Below are positions 6,678 to 33,121 of a stretch of 56,156 nucleotides of DNA, piece by piece (position 1 is the first letter of the stretch; every line of letters begins with the position of its first letter). Source of the DNA: Sulfurospirillaceae bacterium (GTDB lineage: Bacteria > Campylobacterota > Campylobacteria > Campylobacterales > Sulfurospirillaceae); the NCBI GenBank assembly GCA_028692875.1, contig JAQUWL010000013.1, positions 1 through 56,156 on the forward strand, given 5' to 3'. Under the pieces are notes generated by a model. That model was not told the DNA's origin. It saw nothing but the letters and a program-made list of their open reading frames with translations, and made no database searches. A program made the position numbers and the translations under genes.

Positions 6678-7274
6678 TTAAAATCCAAGCTCTTCATCAA
6701 CTATAATAATGGTCGTCCTTCCCTGTTCGTCGCCATTTATATAGGCAAATTTATGTGCAATATTGTGCAAATTATAAGTTGGTTCTTTGCCTAAGTCTAT
6801 CGCTTTTTTATTCATTCTCTCTATGTTTTTTGGTGCCGCAATCTCCATTATTCGACTAAAGCCATCTTCAATCGTATCGACAATTTTATTTTTTCCAACG
6901 ATAAGAAGAACTTTTTTTGGCCCAAAGATTTGTGCAGCTACTCTATTGCCACTGCCATCAGCATTGACTAATTCTCCATTGCGAGTGATTGCATTACAGC
7001 TTGTAATATAAAGGTCACCAACAAGACCTTTTCGTCTTCGCTCAATGTTCTCTTGCATGGATATATTTTCTTCGTATTGATTAAAAAGTGTTATATTTTT
7101 TTGACGAACTAAAAAATCCAAAAGCCCTATTTGGGCAACACTAACTGAGCCACCAAGCCCTATGCTTAGACCATCTTTTATAAAGCTCACAGCTCTTTTG
7201 AGGGCATCTTCTTTGTTTTTTTCTAGATAAACAACAAAACCATTTTTTTCTAAATTTGATTTCAGACTAAGCAT
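6678..7274 (-). CDS. LUD-domain (LutC/YkgG, DUF162) protein
   Basis: 198 residues covering one LUD domain. Typical features are IGLGGSVSVAQIGLLD, a central YITSCNAITRNGELVNADG segment, then GNRVAAQIFGPKKVLLIVGKNK. LUD proteins include LutC and the C-terminal part of LutB, which take part in lactate oxidation; stand-alone copies of this length have no proven role. No lutA or lutB gene is next to it. AAGGGAT lies 5 nt or so before the ATG. It is the first gene of the minus-strand run leading to moaC and is divergent from the TonB-receptor operon. Confidence 0.8.
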   Translation of the reverse strand: MLSLKSNLEKNGFVVYLEKNKEDALKRAVSFIKDGLSIGLGGSVSVAQIGLLDFLVRQKNITLFNQYEENISMQENIERRRKGLVGDLYITSCNAITRNGELVNADGSGNRVAAQIFGPKKVLLIVGKNKIVDTIEDGFSRIMEIAAPKNIERMNKKAIDLGKEPTYNLHNIAHKFAYINGDEQGRTTIIIVDEELGF

Positions 7275-7351
7275 CTACTTATCCCTTTTTATGCTATTTT
7301 ATGTTGCTTAATGATAGCATACAACCACATATATTGTTTAAAGAAGATTGA

Positions 7352-9271
7352 ATGTTCCAAAGCATTTTTCGCATAGCTACACTTTTATCCCTACTTTTAT
7401 CATTTGTTTACCCGCAAGAGAGCATCGAATCGTTATTGTCTGACTATGCCCAAAAGGCGGATTTGTCACAGCAAACCAAAAGAGAAGGCGATGGCTTTTT
7501 GCTCGTTTTTACACGCCAAGATTTGGATAGAATGCAGATAAAATCCCTAAAAGAGATTATAGAGTTTATCCCATTTTTGAGATATAACGAAAGTGCGTCA
7601 GGTCTTAGCGTGCCTGATTATCAGAAAAATAAACCCTCTCAAGCCTCAAGACTTAGGGTCTATCTCAACAATAGAGAGTTGTTTAGCCCATATCGCGGAA
7701 GTGCATTACAGCTTTTTGGGCAGTTAGATATGGCGTATATTGACCATATTGAGATTTACAATGGCTCTCCTTCGTATATTTTTGGCGTAGAGGGTGCGCA
7801 AACAACTATTAGGGCATATACAAAAGATCCGAAAAGAGAAGAGACGACTCTTGTTGGCGGGATGGTCGGAAGCTATGGCGTTAGCGAGACATATGGATAT
7901 ACGGCGGAAAGTTTTGAGGATTTTTCATATTTTGCCTACTTAAATCATAGGGATTTGGGGCGCAAAAAGTACTACAATGGAAACTATGAGCTATCAAGAG
8001 ACAAGGAGAGCTCAAACTTTTATGCTTTATTTCAAAATGATCTACATGTAGTTGAGGTTCAAGCCATCAAAGGCAATATGGACAATTTTGTTGGCAGTAG
8101 TTGGGGAATTGAGCCTTTGGAAAATAGAACCAATTATAGTTACTTTTATAGTGGCTGGAGTTATGCCTCGCAGGATAAGAGCGTTAAGGCATCGTTAGAT
8201 TTTATGCAGTCTTCCACAAAGCAAAAACAAGTTGTTGATGATTTTATTGGGCTTTCGCCAGTGACTTTTTTGCCTTATTCTGACAGTCGTCTTAGAGTAA
8301 CCGAGAGAATGAGTGATATGCACTTAGAGAAAACTTTTAAAGATGCCGACAATAGCCTTCTTTTGGGCGCAAGAGGCAGATATAAAAATTTTATTATCAA
8401 TAGTTATACGGTTGATTTTGTAGATGTTCCTACTACTTCTGGCTATGATGGAGAATTTGTCTCTTCAGCTTATAGCGAAGCAACACACATGATAAATCCC
8501 AACAATATGCTTATGTTTTCCGCCAAAACAGACCATTTTTCTCGTAACGGCAAGGCTCAAGATGAGCAGTTGTATGGTGTTCGCTTAGGATATGTTTACA
8601 ATGTCCCATCTTGGACATGGAAGAGTTTTATATTTACTAGCGATTTTGCTCCAGAGTCATATCTGATGTTTGCCAACCTTGAAAGGTCGTCCCCACATAC
8701 TTTAGTTAGCGAGCATATTGAGGCGGTAACAAGCGAGATAACTTACAAGGGAGATAATTTTACAGATTCTTTGTTGTTTGCGTTATCAAGCCGAGGCAAA
8801 AAGATAGTTTATGATACAACAACACAAAGCTATAAAAACAGTATTGATGACATAGATTTATTTGCGGTATCTGGAAAACACTCATACAATCTTGATGCCT
8901 CAAATAGGGTTGATTTTAATGCGTGGGCAACAAGCGGAGATACGGGCAAAAATTCCCCCAATAGATATCAGTCAAATTATGGAGGATATGTGTTGATGTT
9001 AAATACCATTGGAAAATGGGATTTTTCAAATGGTATTTTTTATAAAGAGGGATTTGAGACGCCCCAAAAGAGCGGATTTAATTTTAACTCCGCCATCACT
9101 TATCGCCATTCGAGAAATTTTTCTATCTTTCTTAAAGGATTTAATCTTTTTGGAGATGCCATCAAGACAGATTATTACAACGTCAATCCTTTAACTTCTG
9201 CCAGAACAAGCATTAATGATGTAGATTCATTTGATAGGTCTGTCTGGCTTGGATTGGAGTATCAGTTTTGA
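7352..9271 (+). CDS. TonB-dependent receptor-like outer-membrane protein
   Basis: 639 residues. A signal peptide (to FVYPQ) precedes a plug domain: LLVFTRQDLDRMQIKSLKEI, LRVYLNNRELFSP, then ELY-like MAYIDHIEIYNGSPSYIFG and an ITIRAYTK-like end (TTIRAYTKDP). From ~residue 165 there are alternating beta strands, and the last residue is Phe (GLEYQF), as required for outer-membrane insertion. The whole chain is shorter than many siderophore receptors. A TonB box is not obvious. Its stop codon overlaps the start of the next gene by 4 nt (TTGA), and that gene is followed by a c-di-GMP enzyme, so the receptor may sense a ligand rather than only import it. Confidence 0.82.
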   Translation: MFQSIFRIATLLSLLLSFVYPQESIESLLSDYAQKADLSQQTKREGDGFLLVFTRQDLDRMQIKSLKEIIEFIPFLRYNESASGLSVPDYQKNKPSQASRLRVYLNNRELFSPYRGSALQLFGQLDMAYIDHIEIYNGSPSYIFGVEGAQTTIRAYTKDPKREETTLVGGMVGSYGVSETYGYTAESFEDFSYFAYLNHRDLGRKKYYNGNYELSRDKESSNFYALFQNDLHVVEVQAIKGNMDNFVGSSWGIEPLENRTNYSYFYSGWSYASQDKSVKASLDFMQSSTKQKQVVDDFIGLSPVTFLPYSDSRLRVTERMSDMHLEKTFKDADNSLLLGARGRYKNFIINSYTVDFVDVPTTSGYDGEFVSSAYSEATHMINPNNMLMFSAKTDHFSRNGKAQDEQLYGVRLGYVYNVPSWTWKSFIFTSDFAPESYLMFANLERSSPHTLVSEHIEAVTSEITYKGDNFTDSLLFALSSRGKKIVYDTTTQSYKNSIDDIDLFAVSGKHSYNLDASNRVDFNAWATSGDTGKNSPNRYQSNYGGYVLMLNTIGKWDFSNGIFYKEGFETPQKSGFNFNSAITYRHSRNFSIFLKGFNLFGDAIKTDYYNVNPLTSARTSINDVDSFDRSVWLGLEYQF

Positions 9272-9693
9272 AAAAGATACTCTTTTTGCTTATCTGTGCT
9301 ACGGTGCTGATTAATGCTAGCGATATCGCATTGGCAAAAGCAAAAATAGTATCTTTCGTAGCAAAAGAACTTGTTAAAAAAGAGTACGTTTCTATTTATG
9401 TCGAAGATATTGACTATGCGGATATTTTTGGAGTATCCAGAAATCTTACCAGGACAAATAGTTGCGAAAACGCAGATATTATTCTCATTAAAAATATTGA
9501 GTTAATTCCAAAAACATGCCTTTTAAATGAGTCTTTGGTTATAGCTACAAGTTATGCAAGTTACAAAAACACACCCTATGTGGTTGGGGCATTTTTTTGG
9601 CAAAAAGGGCGACCAAATATCATCTTGAAAGAGCAAAAATTAAAAGAGCTAGGGATAGTTTTATCTGAAAAACTAAATCCCTATATTGAGTAG
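9268..9693 (+). CDS. small periplasmic protein, YfiR/DUF4154-like
   Basis: 141 residues beginning with TTG at 9268, overlapping the receptor stop, with a signal peptide (MKKILFLLICATVLINA). The remaining ~120 residues have two cysteines (SCEN and KTCLL) and end with a segment VVGAFFWQKGRPNIILKEQ followed by LKELGIVLSEKL. That ending resembles YfiR-type proteins (DUF4154), where a strand-turn-strand of a residual cofactor-like sheet precedes a helix with LKISSQLL-like spacing. YfiR represses the diguanylate cyclase YfiN from the periplasm. The similarity is by eye and weak, but the position between an outer-membrane receptor and an inner-membrane GGDEF/EAL protein fits that role well. Confidence 0.6.
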   Translation: MKKILFLLICATVLINASDIALAKAKIVSFVAKELVKKEYVSIYVEDIDYADIFGVSRNLTRTNSCENADIILIKNIELIPKTCLLNESLVIATSYASYKNTPYVVGAFFWQKGRPNIILKEQKLKELGIVLSEKLNPYIE

Positions 9694-9702
9694 GATATTT
9701 CG

Positions 9703-11583
9703 ATGCAGTATTCTGTTAGAAATTTTTATTTTATTACTCTTTTGATTTTATCTATCGGAGTGCTTTTGCTATTCGTAAAGTACGAAGACACTATTGATGA
9801 CGCAATGAAATCCTCCGAAAAACTCATTATTAGCCGTGTTGAGGGGTTCTCAAAAAACATAGACGAAATGTTAAAAAAAGAGTTTCCAGAGTCTGCCTCT
9901 GATATTTTTAATTGCACTTTAGAACAAATAGAGCAACTTGAAAGACATCTTAGGCTTTTTGTGGGAGAGCAGTATCGATACGTTTACATGGTAGCTAAGG
10001 ATGAAAAGCAGAGATGGAGATATGTTTTGGACGGTTCTAAAAGCATCTCTGAAAAAGGTGAGTTTTTACAAAAATTTAGTCCAGAATCTCCCATGTGGGA
10101 CGAAGTTTTTAAAACCCAAAAGCCACAATATAAGATTCAAGATAAGAGTATGGGGCTTTGGTTGACATATCTGTATCCTGTTGTTCGAGATGGGAAAACA
10201 GAGTTTGTTGTGGCGTTTGACTTTGCTATTAAAGAGCAAAAAGAGATGGGCAAAATATTTTCTCCGCTGAGAGATTATCTGTTTGTTATCTCTTTTTTGT
10301 TGGTTTTAATTTTAATTTTTAGCTACCTTCTTGCATATCTTTTCTACAAACAAAAACAAAAAAGTAGTATTGACCCCTTAACATCTGTCTACAATAGAAA
10401 CTTTTTAAAAGATTATGGCGAAAAAATTGATTTAAATAATTTTGCTATTGCGGTTATTGATATTGACCATTTTAAACGCATAAATGACACACATGGTCAC
10501 GCTGTTGGGGATATTGTTTTAAGAAAAATCGCTCAAAGCATAAAGGATAGCATTAGGGGTGAAGATATTTTGATACGACATGGCGGAGAAGAGTTTTTGC
10601 TTTTTCTAAAGACAAGTCATTCAGATCAAAATATAAGTCAAACAGCCAATCGCATCAAGGATTCCATCTCCAAGAAGGATATGGAGCTTGAGAATATCAA
10701 CATCAAAGTAACGGCTTCAGTGGGTGTAAATCCGAGTCCATGGATGAACTCCTCTTTGGGCGATGCGATTGTTATTGCGGATAAAATGCTCTATTTGGCA
10801 AAAACAAATGGTAGAGACAGAGTTGAAATATTTGAGCATAAGCAAAATAGAGATGTTTTGAAAAAAACCGAAGATATAGCTTTGGCGATAGAAGAGGAAA
10901 GGTTATTTGCATTTTTTCAGCCCATATCTTGTGTTGAAACAGGCGAGATAGTTAAGTATGAAGCATTGGCGAGAATCATAACCAAAGAGGGAAAAATATT
11001 TTATCCAGCACAATTTTTGCCACTTATTCGCAAAACAACTACATATAGAAACCTTAGCAAAACAATGCTCAAAGAGGCTTTTTGGGCGATAAATACATAT
11101 GGTATTAGCGTGAGCATCAATTTTGACACTGGTGATTTTTTTGATGAGACGCTTTTTGAGATGATTTATGCCATGCTTGAGGAAAATAAAAAAATTGCCC
11201 AAAAATTAACTATTGAGCTTTTGGAGGATAGGGAAATTTTAGATATTCAAGCCATAGTTTCTCGCATAAATTCTTTAAGAGAGCTTGGCGTGAGTATAGC
11301 CATTGATGATTTTGGTAGTGGGTATTCTACGTTTCATTATATTTTGAGCATTAAGCCAGATTTTTTAAAGATTGACGGTTCGATTATTAAGCAGCTTGCC
11401 AAAAATCCTCATGCGAAAGAAGTTATAGGTGCGATTGTTCAAATTTGTAAAACACTGAAAATAAAAAACATTGCCGAGTGTGTTGAAGAGGAGGAGTGTT
11501 TGGAGGTTTTGAAAAATTTGGGCGTGGATTTTGTGCAAGGGTATGCTATTGGAAAGCCTTCTTTTGCTCTTTGTGTGTGCTAA
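9703..11583 (+). CDS. membrane sensor GGDEF-EAL c-di-GMP enzyme
   Basis: 626 residues. A transmembrane helix (~8-25), a periplasmic sensor region (~26-190) and a second helix (~195-215) are followed by a GGDEF domain with FKRINDTHGHAVGD, the active motif GGEEF at 294-298 and an RGED inhibitory site five residues before it, then an EAL domain with EAL at ~420, AIDDFGSGYSTFHYI and LKIDGSII. Both domains keep their key residues, so it could both make and degrade c-di-GMP; AECVEEEE replaces the usual AEGVE. AGGAT precedes the ATG, 9 nt after the YfiR-like gene. It is the output end of the receptor operon. Confidence 0.9.
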   Translation: MQYSVRNFYFITLLILSIGVLLLFVKYEDTIDDAMKSSEKLIISRVEGFSKNIDEMLKKEFPESASDIFNCTLEQIEQLERHLRLFVGEQYRYVYMVAKDEKQRWRYVLDGSKSISEKGEFLQKFSPESPMWDEVFKTQKPQYKIQDKSMGLWLTYLYPVVRDGKTEFVVAFDFAIKEQKEMGKIFSPLRDYLFVISFLLVLILIFSYLLAYLFYKQKQKSSIDPLTSVYNRNFLKDYGEKIDLNNFAIAVIDIDHFKRINDTHGHAVGDIVLRKIAQSIKDSIRGEDILIRHGGEEFLLFLKTSHSDQNISQTANRIKDSISKKDMELENINIKVTASVGVNPSPWMNSSLGDAIVIADKMLYLAKTNGRDRVEIFEHKQNRDVLKKTEDIALAIEEERLFAFFQPISCVETGEIVKYEALARIITKEGKIFYPAQFLPLIRKTTTYRNLSKTMLKEAFWAINTYGISVSINFDTGDFFDETLFEMIYAMLEENKKIAQKLTIELLEDREILDIQAIVSRINSLRELGVSIAIDDFGSGYSTFHYILSIKPDFLKIDGSIIKQLAKNPHAKEVIGAIVQICKTLKIKNIAECVEEEECLEVLKNLGVDFVQGYAIGKPSFALCVC

Positions 11584-11693
11584 AATAGGCTCTTTCGTTA
11601 AAAAAAGTTATTTTTTTTACTTCACTTAACTAAAAACTTGTTTATTATGATACAATTCTTGCTTATAAAAGTTTCTATTGGATATTCTCTTTG

Positions 11694-11740
11694 TGCACTT
11701 GTGTCAAGGGGGAGTGCAATAAGTGACTGAAACACAGGAG
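11694..11740 (+). promoter_or_regulatory. structured 5' leader of the RRM gene (possible pseudoknot)
   Basis: Upstream of the RRM gene TGCACT (11694-11699) can pair with AGTGCA (11713-11718). The loop contains TGTGT (11700-11704), which is complementary to ACACA at 11732-11736, immediately before the ribosome site AGGAG (11736-11740). Together they would make an H-type pseudoknot touching the ribosome site. A GATACAAT-type -10 lies near 11648-11656. The fold is inferred from pairing by eye. Confidence 0.35.
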
Positions 11741-11750
11741 CAGATGAGAG

Positions 11751-12026
11751 ATGAATATTTACGTAGGTAATATTAGGTATGACATGACTGAAACAGAATT
11801 GAGAGATATGTTTTCTTCATATGGTGAAGTATCAAGCGCTAGAATTATTAGCGATAGAGAAACAGGAAGATCTAAAGGTTTTGGATTTGTTGAAATGCCA
11901 GACGACAATCAAGCGAAAGTAGCAATTGAGTCTACAAACGATAAAGAAATTAGTGGCAGAACATTGAAAGTGAATGAAGCAAGACCTCGTGAAGAGAAAC
12001 CTCGCAGAGCTCCTAGAAACTACTAG
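11751..12026 (+). CDS. RRM-type RNA-binding protein
   Basis: 91 residues forming a single RNA-recognition motif: RNP2 IYVGNI at residues 3-8, the helix MTETELRDMFSSYGEV, RNP1 KGFGFVEM around 43-50, and TLKVNEARP at the end of the domain, followed by a short Arg/Pro-rich tail that would add RNA contacts. Such stand-alone RRM proteins occur in Campylobacterota and cyanobacteria, often linked with cold response; the targets here are unknown. The gene has AGGAG 10 nt before the ATG, a folded leader, and its own terminator, so it is a single-gene unit. Confidence 0.93.
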   Translation: MNIYVGNIRYDMTETELRDMFSSYGEVSSARIISDRETGRSKGFGFVEMPDDNQAKVAIESTNDKEISGRTLKVNEARPREEKPRRAPRNY

Positions 12027-12039
12027 TCAAACAGATTAA

Positions 12040-12073
12040 AAAAGGGAACTGAGCTTTTGCTTGGTTCCCTTTT
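12040..12073. terminator. bidirectional terminator between the RRM gene and pldA
   Basis: AAAAGGGAAC (12040-12049) pairs with GTTCCCTTTT (12064-12073); inside it AGC/GCT continue the helix around a TTTT loop. T runs occur on both strands, so it can stop the RRM gene on the plus strand and the phospholipase gene on the minus strand. Confidence 0.85.
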
Positions 12074-12082
12074 AAAATTATC

Positions 12083-13138
12083 CTACCTCGAAATCGCAAA
12101 GCCGATACCAATCTTGTCATTTCTTTTATTGTAGTCTATTAAACTTTCTCCATATCCGCTATAAAGCTGTATAAATCCAAACATATCTTTGCCAAAAAGC
12201 GGAAAAGTCCAGTCAAGCTGAACTGCACCTCGATTTTTATCCACAAAATCAAAATTATTTTTTACCAAAAGCGTAAAAAAATGACTGCCCCAGGGATATG
12301 AAATGCTTATATCGCCGTATCCTAAATATTTATAGATATCAGGATTGTCATCGCCGTTTTTATCCGCAAGATTGATTTTGTCTCGCTCTGGAAGTCTATA
12401 CCAAAATCTTGGCGATACAAGAAACTCTCCAAGCTGGAAAAAGCCTTGTGCATAGATCCTATTCCATGATCTTGATTTTTCCTCGTCTTGACCATTTGAC
12501 TCATGCAAAAGTCCTATTTTGTAGGCTTTTAAAGGGCTCTCTTTTTCTCCATATGGAAAAAGCATAAATATTTCCGGTGCATAATTTGTCTCTCTAAAAG
12601 GGGTTGATTGAGCTGAGGTTTGCCACCAAGATGTCTGAGTATAAGCAACAAACAGTGACTCATTAAGCCCAAAAAAGTTTTGTAGAAGATTTTTTTTGAA
12701 ACTAACTTGAAACTTGGTTTCACTATTTTTTCGATTCTCGTGTCTTGTGTCATTGTAGGTAAATGGCAGAAGATAGTTCATTTTGTAGGGTTGAATATCA
12801 AAAGATGATGATAGTATCTGCTCTACCGAGCTTTGCGTTTCGTTATTGTCATATTTGCTAAGAGTGCTTATGTAATTTTTCTCAATGTTTTTTACTCTTT
12901 TTGTTTCGTCATAAAGCATCTTTTGCTGTACTGTGGATGGCTCTTTTTGTTGCTTTTCTTCAAGTCCTAATTTGGCAGATTTTTTATACCACAAAAGAGC
13001 ATTTTGAATGTCCTCCTTCTCTTCAAATGCTTTAGCCTTTTCGTATGCCAATCTTGCATTTTCAAAAGCACCAGCACTGAAGGGCAAAAAAGTGAGTGCT
13101 AAAAGGCTTAAGAGTGCTACTTTTCTCAATGTGACCAA
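12083..13138 (-). CDS. pldA: outer-membrane phospholipase A (OMPLA-like)
   Basis: 351 residues. After the signal peptide (to FSAGA) comes a short helical repeat of Sel1/TPR type (LAYEKAKAFEEKEDIQNALL), then the beta barrel. The family catalytic segment is visible as LLHESNGQDEEKSRSWNR, holding the His and Ser of the His-Ser-Asn triad and the later Asn. DKNGDDNPDIYKYLGYGD contains acidic residues that may bind calcium, as in OMPLA. The enzyme hydrolyses phospholipids misplaced in the outer leaflet of the outer membrane. The extra N-terminal helical repeat is common in Campylobacterota homologs. It shares a terminator with the convergent RRM gene. Confidence 0.88.
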   Translation of the reverse strand: MVTLRKVALLSLLALTFLPFSAGAFENARLAYEKAKAFEEKEDIQNALLWYKKSAKLGLEEKQQKEPSTVQQKMLYDETKRVKNIEKNYISTLSKYDNNETQSSVEQILSSSFDIQPYKMNYLLPFTYNDTRHENRKNSETKFQVSFKKNLLQNFFGLNESLFVAYTQTSWWQTSAQSTPFRETNYAPEIFMLFPYGEKESPLKAYKIGLLHESNGQDEEKSRSWNRIYAQGFFQLGEFLVSPRFWYRLPERDKINLADKNGDDNPDIYKYLGYGDISISYPWGSHFFTLLVKNNFDFVDKNRGAVQLDWTFPLFGKDMFGFIQLYSGYGESLIDYNKRNDKIGIGFAISR

Positions 13139-31156: not shown

Positions 31157-33121
31157 TTGAATGAAAAAATCTCTTTCGTTAAAGATATCCCTGAATTTGG
31201 TTGGGTTGTTGGCAGTGGTTTTTATCTTCAAGAGGTTGAAAAGATACTTTTTCAGCGCGAAGAAGAGCTAAAAAACAGACTCAAAGAGACTGTAATGGCT
31301 GTTGTTGCCACTTCAATTATGATTATTTTTGTGATTTTGATGGGTATGTTTTTTATCTCTAAAAAATTGCGTTTGATGCTCCAAAAATACGAACGAAATC
31401 TTCTTGTAAACAACCGACAAATACGCTCTCAAAAAAAGGTATTTCAAACGCTCTTTGAAAAATCAACTGATGGTATTTTGATTATGCAAGAGGATGTTTG
31501 TGTGGATTGCAATGAAGCTATCGTTAAGATGTTTAGAGCCAAAAGCAAAAATGATTTGATTGGACTTACACTTCAAGACATCTCCCCAGAATTTCAAGAT
31601 GATGGCGAGAACTCAGCAATTAAAGCCAAACGAACAAATCAAATGGCATACGCAAGAGGTGTGCATAAATTTGAGTGGATTGCTAAGGCTTTTGATGAGG
31701 AGCTTTTTTGGATTAGTATCGTTTTGACAACGATTGAGATGGAAGATGGGACAATTCAGCACTACTCCATAAGAAATATTACGGCACGCAAAAGGCTTGA
31801 GTTGGAAAATGAGCGCCAAAGAGAGCAGTTGCTACATCAAATAAAACATGATACTCTGACAAATCTTCCAAATAGGGTTTTGCTCTCCGATAGACTCTCT
31901 CAAGCTATCAAAAAAGCAGATAGAGATAAAAAAATAGTAGCCGTGTTGTTTGTAGATATTGACAAATTTAAGATTATAAATGACACTCTAGGGCACGAAT
32001 CAGGCGATATGGTTTTGGTAAAAATCGCAGATCGCCTTAGGCAAAACATCAGACAAACTGATACGGCAGCACGTTTGAGTGGCGATGAGTTCATCGTTTT
32101 AATAGATGGATGCGAGGATGTTAATTCTGTTATATTGGTGGTTAAAAAAATTATTTCCGCTTTTCAAGAGCCTTTTTTGATTAAAAATGAGTCACTCAAA
32201 GTTACTACAAGCATGGGTATCAGTATCTATCCAAACGATGGCGAATCGGCACAAAAACTTCTAAAAAATGCTGATATAGCGATGTATAAGGCCAAGCAAG
32301 AGGGAAAAAATAGATATAAATTTTTTGCCCAAAGCATGAACGATGAGACGGTTGAGCATATCGAGATGGAAAAAAATATTATTTTGGGGCTTAGTCGAGG
32401 CGAGTTTTTGATGTATTATCAACCACAAATCAATATAATTAATGGAAACATAGTTGGTTTTGAAGCACTTATTCGTTGGATTCATCCAGAAAAAGGATTT
32501 ATTCCGCCTTCGTACTTTATCCCTATTGCTGAAGAGAGTGATTTGATTATTGATTTGGGAGATTGGGTGTTAAAAGAGGCAATGACTCAGATATCAAAGT
32601 GGTACAACATGGGGCTAAATCCAGGAAAAGTTGCTATTAACTTTGCAGGAAAACAGCTTGAGTCTTCAGGTCTGTTTTCTTTGGTGGAAGAGACGCTTAA
32701 AAGCACCCAGTGTAAACCAGAGTGGATTGAGATTGAAATTGTTGAGAGATTTATCATGAAGGATGTTGAAAAATCTATAGCTCTGTTAAGTTCATTTAGG
32801 GATTTAAATATAGATATTTCTATTGATGATTTTGGTACAGGATACTCTTCTTTGGCATATTTGAAGCATCTACCTATTACCAAGCTAAAAATAGACCAAT
32901 CTTTTGTTAGAAATTTATCTCAAAGCAGGGAAGATAGAGCTATTGCCAAGACCATTATAGAATTAGGGAAAGGGCTAGGTCTAAAAGTTTTGGCGGAGGG
33001 CGTGGAAAATGAAGAGGAGCAATCTTTTTTATCTTACAATGGCTGTGAGCTTATGCAAGGATATTTGTTTGGAAAGCCTTTGCCAGCAGACAAAGCACAA
33101 GAGATGCTTGAAGCTCAATGA
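31157..33121 (+). CDS. PAS-GGDEF-EAL output half of the frameshifted protein
   Basis: 654 residues by the ATG at 31157, but the real frame opens near 31031 in continuity with the upstream half. Order: end of the Cache domain (PEFGWVVGSGFYLQEVEKIL), a transmembrane helix (~45-68), a PAS domain (FEKSTDGILIMQEDVCVDCN), GGDEF with FKIINDTLGHESGD and SGDEF instead of GGDEF, then EAL with FEALIRW, IDDFGTGYSSLAYLKHLP and LAEGVENEEE. All EAL key residues remain, so phosphodiesterase activity is likely; SGDEF may weaken cyclase activity. Final residues HEP-type tail short. No ribosome site lies before 31157. Confidence 0.85.
   Translation: MNEKISFVKDIPEFGWVVGSGFYLQEVEKILFQREEELKNRLKETVMAVVATSIMIIFVILMGMFFISKKLRLMLQKYERNLLVNNRQIRSQKKVFQTLFEKSTDGILIMQEDVCVDCNEAIVKMFRAKSKNDLIGLTLQDISPEFQDDGENSAIKAKRTNQMAYARGVHKFEWIAKAFDEELFWISIVLTTIEMEDGTIQHYSIRNITARKRLELENERQREQLLHQIKHDTLTNLPNRVLLSDRLSQAIKKADRDKKIVAVLFVDIDKFKIINDTLGHESGDMVLVKIADRLRQNIRQTDTAARLSGDEFIVLIDGCEDVNSVILVVKKIISAFQEPFLIKNESLKVTTSMGISIYPNDGESAQKLLKNADIAMYKAKQEGKNRYKFFAQSMNDETVEHIEMEKNIILGLSRGEFLMYYQPQINIINGNIVGFEALIRWIHPEKGFIPPSYFIPIAEESDLIIDLGDWVLKEAMTQISKWYNMGLNPGKVAINFAGKQLESSGLFSLVEETLKSTQCKPEWIEIEIVERFIMKDVEKSIALLSSFRDLNIDISIDDFGTGYSSLAYLKHLPITKLKIDQSFVRNLSQSREDRAIAKTIIELGKGLGLKVLAEGVENEEEQSFLSYNGCELMQGYLFGKPLPADKAQEMLEAQ

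Follow-up and report, generated by a model that had tools for sequence, protein, structure and literature searches.

A candidate Yfi-like signalling operon with a TonB-type receptor in the place of YfiB in Campylobacterota

The window analysed here, a stretch of 56,156 nucleotides from a Sulfurospirillaceae bacterium (assembly GCA_028692875.1, contig JAQUWL010000013.1), contains at positions 7352-11583 three tandem genes, all on the plus strand, for a Plug-domain outer-membrane receptor, a secreted protein of 141 residues and a GGDEF-EAL enzyme of cyclic di-GMP (c-di-GMP) metabolism. It is fairly probable that this trio constitutes a Yfi-like trans-envelope signalling operon in which the receptor has taken the place of YfiB. 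This view is founded on gene order, homology, the fold of the small protein, the conservation of the unit, the swapping of its outputs and its occurrence in genomes without detectable TonB-ExbB-ExbD. That a receptor, a small protein and a c-di-GMP enzyme are neighbours here, as a first-pass annotation of this DNA had claimed, is borne out by the open reading frames, by Pfam and by the recurrence of the arrangement across divergent genomes. The same annotation spoke of an overlapping operon, which is true of the first two genes, with an overlap of 4 bases, but not of the enzyme gene, which begins 9 bases past the stop of the small gene.

The arrangement was followed through 100 genomes, consisting of the window's own and 99 relatives. 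The small protein is found in 46 of these (63 matches), and 72 loci were examined: the window, 61 fetched from the relatives' genomes and 10 of 14 further loci. Four loci (L031, L035, L036 and L037) were left out as duplicate contigs, and a weak match of the small protein (G089:C1:1453655, E 0.0095) was left out of the fetched loci. Dropping receptors of at most 500 residues and then loci more than 90% identical in the receptor gave a non-redundant set, also of 61. In 71 of the 72 loci the gene just ahead of the small gene is matched by a hidden Markov model (HMM) of the receptor, as it is in 57/57 once the 14 rows used to build the model are excluded; an HMM of the enzyme's sensor domain matches the downstream protein in 66/72, or in 54/60 without its 12 building rows. 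An adjacent output with the same sensor is present in 67 loci, 66 times downstream and once upstream, the latter being a GGDEF-EAL gene that precedes the receptor (L097). At L093 a kinase lies downstream, with a sensor that the HMM does not match.

The members of the trio have also diverged together. Among 55 non-redundant trios the pairwise distances correlate with r 0.93 for receptor and small protein, 0.93 for receptor and sensor and 0.90 for small protein and sensor, while the maximum in 1000 shuffles of the receptor-small pairing was 0.15. The genes flanking the trio, by contrast, fall into 38 clusters among 57 upstream and 36 among 53 downstream, the largest having 9 members. Since the outer flanks vary among loci, conservation of the trio exceeds that of its surroundings, and its recurrence in divergent genomes with differing flanks means that the arrangement is more than chance.

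The receptor gene (7352-9271) encodes 639 residues and ends in a C-terminal phenylalanine, which is shared by 61/61 receptors of the non-redundant loci. The Pfam Plug domain (PF07715) covers residues 51-147 (7502-7792), with E 2.7e-5 and 25.1 bits against a cut-off of 23.9; the Pfam scan gave no barrel model, no STN and nothing besides Plug. The Plug model also misses some receptors of the trio family, for example those of L092 and L103. Ahead of the plug lies a conserved N-terminal segment, residues 24-48 (7421-7495), with invariant columns across 14 receptors and a motif, [DE][LM]S..T, present in 46/64 receptors; a TonB box, if present, would presumably lie here. Searches of plasmids with the receptor and with the small protein gave no match. 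At L060, L062, L067 and L071 the receptor gene seems to be split or shortened, by decay or by assembly error.

The small gene (9268-9693) starts at a TTG codon within the last codons of the receptor gene, and the receptor stop and this start share four bases, as TTGA, at 9268-9271. A TTG start with this overlap may set the ratio of receptor to small protein. The same combination occurs in 36 of the 61 non-redundant loci, a count that depends on the choice of starts, which were picked by script. The protein begins with a stretch resembling a signal peptide, as judged from sequence and model and not by a dedicated predictor. Its membership in DUF4154 (PF13689), the first check that had been proposed, turned out negative: no Pfam family, DUF4154 included, was matched at E up to 10, a DUF4154 search of the window's own genome found nothing, and a sequence search of the PDB with the same E limit gave 0 matches. 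Because the HMM membership test was negative, fold and profile comparison were used instead. A model built from 15 sequences of the window and related loci (pLDDT 93.7, pTM 0.86) has YfiR chains as its top matches in VIA-align, with Z 10.6, a root-mean-square deviation of 3.1 over 121/124 residues and 7% identity. When the profile of the small family, for which 65 of 72 rows were used, was compared with that of 40 Campylobacterota DUF4154 proteins, signal peptides included, the result was 96%, E 3.2e-9 and a score of 59, and 20 column-shuffled controls scored no higher than 15; a smaller pair of alignments gave 64.5%. We take the small protein to be a divergent YfiR-superfamily protein that lies outside the Pfam family.

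The most conserved part of this protein is a hairpin, GAFFWQKGRP (residues 107-116, 9586-9615), of which G, W, K, R and P are invariant in 61/61 rows. Profile alignment and the model place its second strand in register with strand beta-7 of YfiR, the register with the Pseudomonas aeruginosa numbering being our own. Strand beta-7 is reported to contact YfiB (PMC3375315, PMC4655355). Cysteines near positions 66 and 84 are both present in 41/61 rows, both missing in 17 and single in 3; their co-occurrence, although weakened by the relatedness of the rows, suggests a disulfide.

The third gene (9703-11583) encodes a 626-residue inner-membrane enzyme. Its GGDEF domain (residues 222-373, 10366-10821; E 9.6e-34) and its EAL domain (residues 391-619, 10873-11559; E 8e-55) are both well above the Pfam cut-offs. 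The claim that both c-di-GMP motifs are intact also stands, since the enzyme retains GGEEF, the EAL signature stretches and an RxxD five residues ahead of GGEEF; these are the motif residues to which catalysis is assigned in GGDEF and EAL domains. Sequence and model, rather than a dedicated predictor, indicate two membrane helices. In the model of residues 1-218 (pLDDT 82) a Cache-like domain, predicted to be periplasmic (about residues 29-190, 9787-10272), lies between long helices, and the closest structures to it are the extracellular domains of WalK and KinD (Z 12-14). Pfam detected no HAMP domain in the enzyme, and a search of it for AAVVF, named as the YfiN motif in PMC3375315, found none. 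A CHASE8 or LapD-type identity was considered for this single-Cache sensor and rejected, only L093 giving a match, a weak one to LapD_MoxY_N.

One and the same sensor domain precedes different outputs. By motif, length and Pfam, the 61 non-redundant loci comprise 34 GGDEF-EAL enzymes, 14 GGDEF enzymes and 9 histidine kinases, with 3 loci having no output and 1 being cut off; at least 6 changes of output are required on a tree of receptor plus small protein, on which the nearest relatives of the window by path are GGDEF-only. GG[DE]EF is kept in 47/47 downstream GGDEF outputs, I-site spacing in 35 of them, and both EAL motifs searched are kept in 29/33 GGDEF-EAL outputs. The kinases among the 72 loci all have Pfam kinase domains (10/10), and 9/10 have the same sensor domain. 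The next gene encodes a REC-PAS-EAL protein in 8/8 complete cases tested, so the kinase loci would also lead to c-di-GMP; a helicase gene lies further on at L093, and L096 is truncated at the end of its contig. Judged by these domains, nearly every output examined appears to end in c-di-GMP. Swaps to GGDEF-EAL and to histidine kinases have already been reported for divergent Yfi operons (PMC3375315).

A receptor of this class is normally dependent on TonB. In the window's genome, a draft of 44 contigs that is 99.87% complete, a search for TonB_C (PF03544) found no match, while the same model finds TonB_C in 80/100 genomes and hence works in this set. The sole TonB_2 and the sole ExbD match of the window's genome sit in one operon, read as atpC-tolQ-tolR-tolA-tolB-pal, for which Pfam backs tolQ, tolR and the TonB_2 domain and gives weak support for tolB; because of this location the two matches are taken as TolA and TolR. 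Presence of the trio is not associated with presence of TonB, since PF03544 is lacking in 9 of the 46 carriers of the small protein and in 11 of the 54 other genomes. The 8 further carriers without TonB_C each have one ExbD-family match, which adjoins TolQ and TolB in 8/8, so that TolR is the only ExbD-family gene found in all nine. Two TonB-positive controls, G004 and G033, have two ExbD-family genes each, one beside TolQ, TolA and TolB and the other with a TolQ-like gene only.

Two of the nine, G058 and G089, are single-contig genomes. All Plug matches of G015, G055 and G089 are trio receptors. Neither the closed G058 nor the draft genome G027 has any Plug match; in G058 even its own trio receptor falls below detection, and since that receptor escapes the Plug model, absence of TonB by HMM is not proof. 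The trio receptor probably signals without TonB. As the trio occurs without detectable TonB-ExbB-ExbD, "TonB-type" should be taken here as a statement of ancestry and not of energy source. The window's genome has one further Plug receptor (G000 contig 1, L170 4704-6740, minus strand), with full Plug and barrel matches, although no TonB was detected in this genome.

The link between YfiR-like proteins and TonB-type receptors is wider than the trio family. PF13689 is matched in 36 of 397 Campylobacterota genomes, in 29 of them over the cut-off, and 40 of the 50 matches were fetched (L128-L167). By a crude rule, which misses L129 and L136 where Pfam does find a receptor, 31 of these 40 loci have a barrel-like neighbour; 22 have a GGDEF neighbour and 15 have both. 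Ten large neighbours picked by hand carry Plug and TonB-barrel domains by Pfam in 10/10 cases, so these classical DUF4154 genes, too, adjoin such receptors. As in the trio, genes for a receptor, a YfiR-like protein and a GGDEF protein or kinase are adjacent; unlike the trio, these loci have proper DUF4154 proteins, full Plug and barrel matches in their receptors and several gene orders. We found no published description of this arrangement in the open-licence literature.

Tripartite c-di-GMP systems with outer-membrane, periplasmic and inner-membrane partners are known from Pseudomonas aeruginosa (YfiBNR) and Yersinia (HmsCDE), and the trio shares with them a middle protein of YfiR fold and a GGDEF-type output. 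In YfiBNR, YfiR is reported to repress YfiN, and YfiB to draw YfiR to the outer membrane (PMC3375315, PMC4655355). The trio differs in that a receptor barrel replaces the Pal-like lipoprotein YfiB, and no Pal/OmpA-like lipoprotein gene is seen among its neighbours. In contrast to YfiR, its small protein escapes the DUF4154 model and has a partly different cysteine pattern. Where YfiN has a periplasmic PAS domain with AAVVF, a HAMP domain and GGDEF, the trio enzyme has the Cache-like sensor. FecA-type TonB-dependent transducers are likewise plug-barrel receptors that signal across the envelope, but the trio receptor lacks an STN match and occurs in a genome without detected TonB_C; no FecR or ECF (extracytoplasmic function) sigma factor gene lies beside it, the rest of the genome not having been searched for these. 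In titles and abstract openings of the open-licence literature no description of the trio arrangement was found, though other papers may describe it.

The first-pass annotation had thus seen rightly that the small protein is YfiR-like, which fold match and remote DUF4154 profile similarity both indicate, and that the locus is a Yfi variant with a TonB-type receptor, the receptor occupying YfiB's place beside a middle protein of YfiR fold. It would have fallen if the small protein had no likeness to the YfiR fold and the trio were not conserved; the likeness and, across the order, the synteny are both there. Its trans-envelope signalling reading is likewise supported, with the signal presumably being handed physically from one protein to the next.

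Within the genome, the trio receptor and the small protein are present in one copy each, while there are 33 GGDEF matches, 32 of them above the cut-off. The strongest of these (E 4.6e-54, in a 703-residue frame) also lies in the window, at 31844-32314. A small RNA-binding protein of RRM type (Pfam RRM_1) is encoded at 11751-12026 on the same strand, 167 bases after the trio. A promoter scan of 7150-12100 was uninformative (8 sites, where shuffles led to an expectation of 16.5); terminator-like sites in this region number 5, against 3.0 in shuffles.

A working model can be proposed in which contacts, ligand, direction of control and TonB independence in living cells are what we infer. A cue at the cell surface would be sensed by the plug-barrel receptor, whose plug faces the periplasm and, with no TonB involved, would bind or release the YfiR-fold protein. 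This protein would then act on the enzyme's Cache-like domain in the periplasm and thereby set synthesis or breakdown of c-di-GMP. If control runs as in YfiBNR, the small protein may repress when free, and the receptor may draw it away. The GAFFWQKGRP hairpin and the N-terminal segment of the receptor may well meet, because the hairpin aligns with the YfiB-contacting strand and the segment carries a motif of its own.

Several observations weigh against this Yfi-like reading. No receptor lies beside the small gene of L052 in the stretch fetched, and in one clade (L032, L033, L034 and L081) only a HAD-like gene adjoins the pair. Shared descent accounts for part of the co-divergence. Without signal peptides the profile match with DUF4154 is modest (64%, score 31.7, 76 columns); the highest control scores here were 15.6 among 50 shuffles and 17.5 among five Tol/Atp families and the sensor and receptor profiles. 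The window's genome, G009, G028 and G052 carry at least one further Plug receptor, so that in these four a TonB may have been missed or may be divergent. In the structural comparison a lobe of a binding protein of the ABC (ATP-binding cassette) type, 3lft, is nearly tied with YfiR in VIA-align (Z 10.0), and Foldseek places another such protein, 3lkv, first, with YfiR chains at ranks 2-11. YfiR itself is reported to resemble 3lkv and 3lft as well (PMC4655355).

The likeness to an ABC_sub_bind-type lobe, with 3lkv at Z 9.3, would also fit a ligand relay, in which the receptor admits a small molecule that the small protein binds as a one-lobe binding protein, the ligand or the loaded protein then acting on the Cache domain. 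Such a relay has a precedent in NspS with MbaA in Vibrio cholerae, and Cache-like folds often bind small ligands. We nevertheless consider it unlikely: a single lobe of 124 residues cannot form a two-lobe cleft, conservation peaks in the hairpin rather than in a pocket (no pocket having been computed), and retention of the receptor where no TonB is detected argues against driven import. The last point also bears on the idea of a receptor that truly transports a nutrient, with the downstream pair only reporting or regulating its use, or adjusting c-di-GMP in the nutrient's presence. Most receptors with a Plug domain are transporters and TonB_C is present in 37/46 carriers, but carriers without TonB-ExbB-ExbD exist, two of them being single-contig genomes, and the conserved unit contains no transport gene; this idea is quite improbable. 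That the three genes are chance neighbours without joint function has a negligible probability, as the unit is conserved in divergent genomes while its flanks change.

What is new is that the trio is kept in genomes seemingly without the TonB motor that such receptors normally need. YfiB is reported to be missing from almost all divergent Yfi operons (PMC3375315), and the trio family is a candidate for the input side of Yfi-type pathways without YfiB. It also points to likely contact surfaces, namely the N-terminal segment of the receptor, the GAFFWQKGRP hairpin and the Cache-like domain, and the carriers without detectable TonB are natural test cases for a TonB-type receptor that only signals. 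The chances seem evenly balanced that some plug-barrel receptors form a class that has abandoned transport driven by TonB to become a pure surface sensor, with a YfiR-like protein as the shuttle to c-di-GMP outputs that are interchangeable, and that this plan has been built repeatedly in the phylum from different subfamilies of receptors and YfiR-like proteins.

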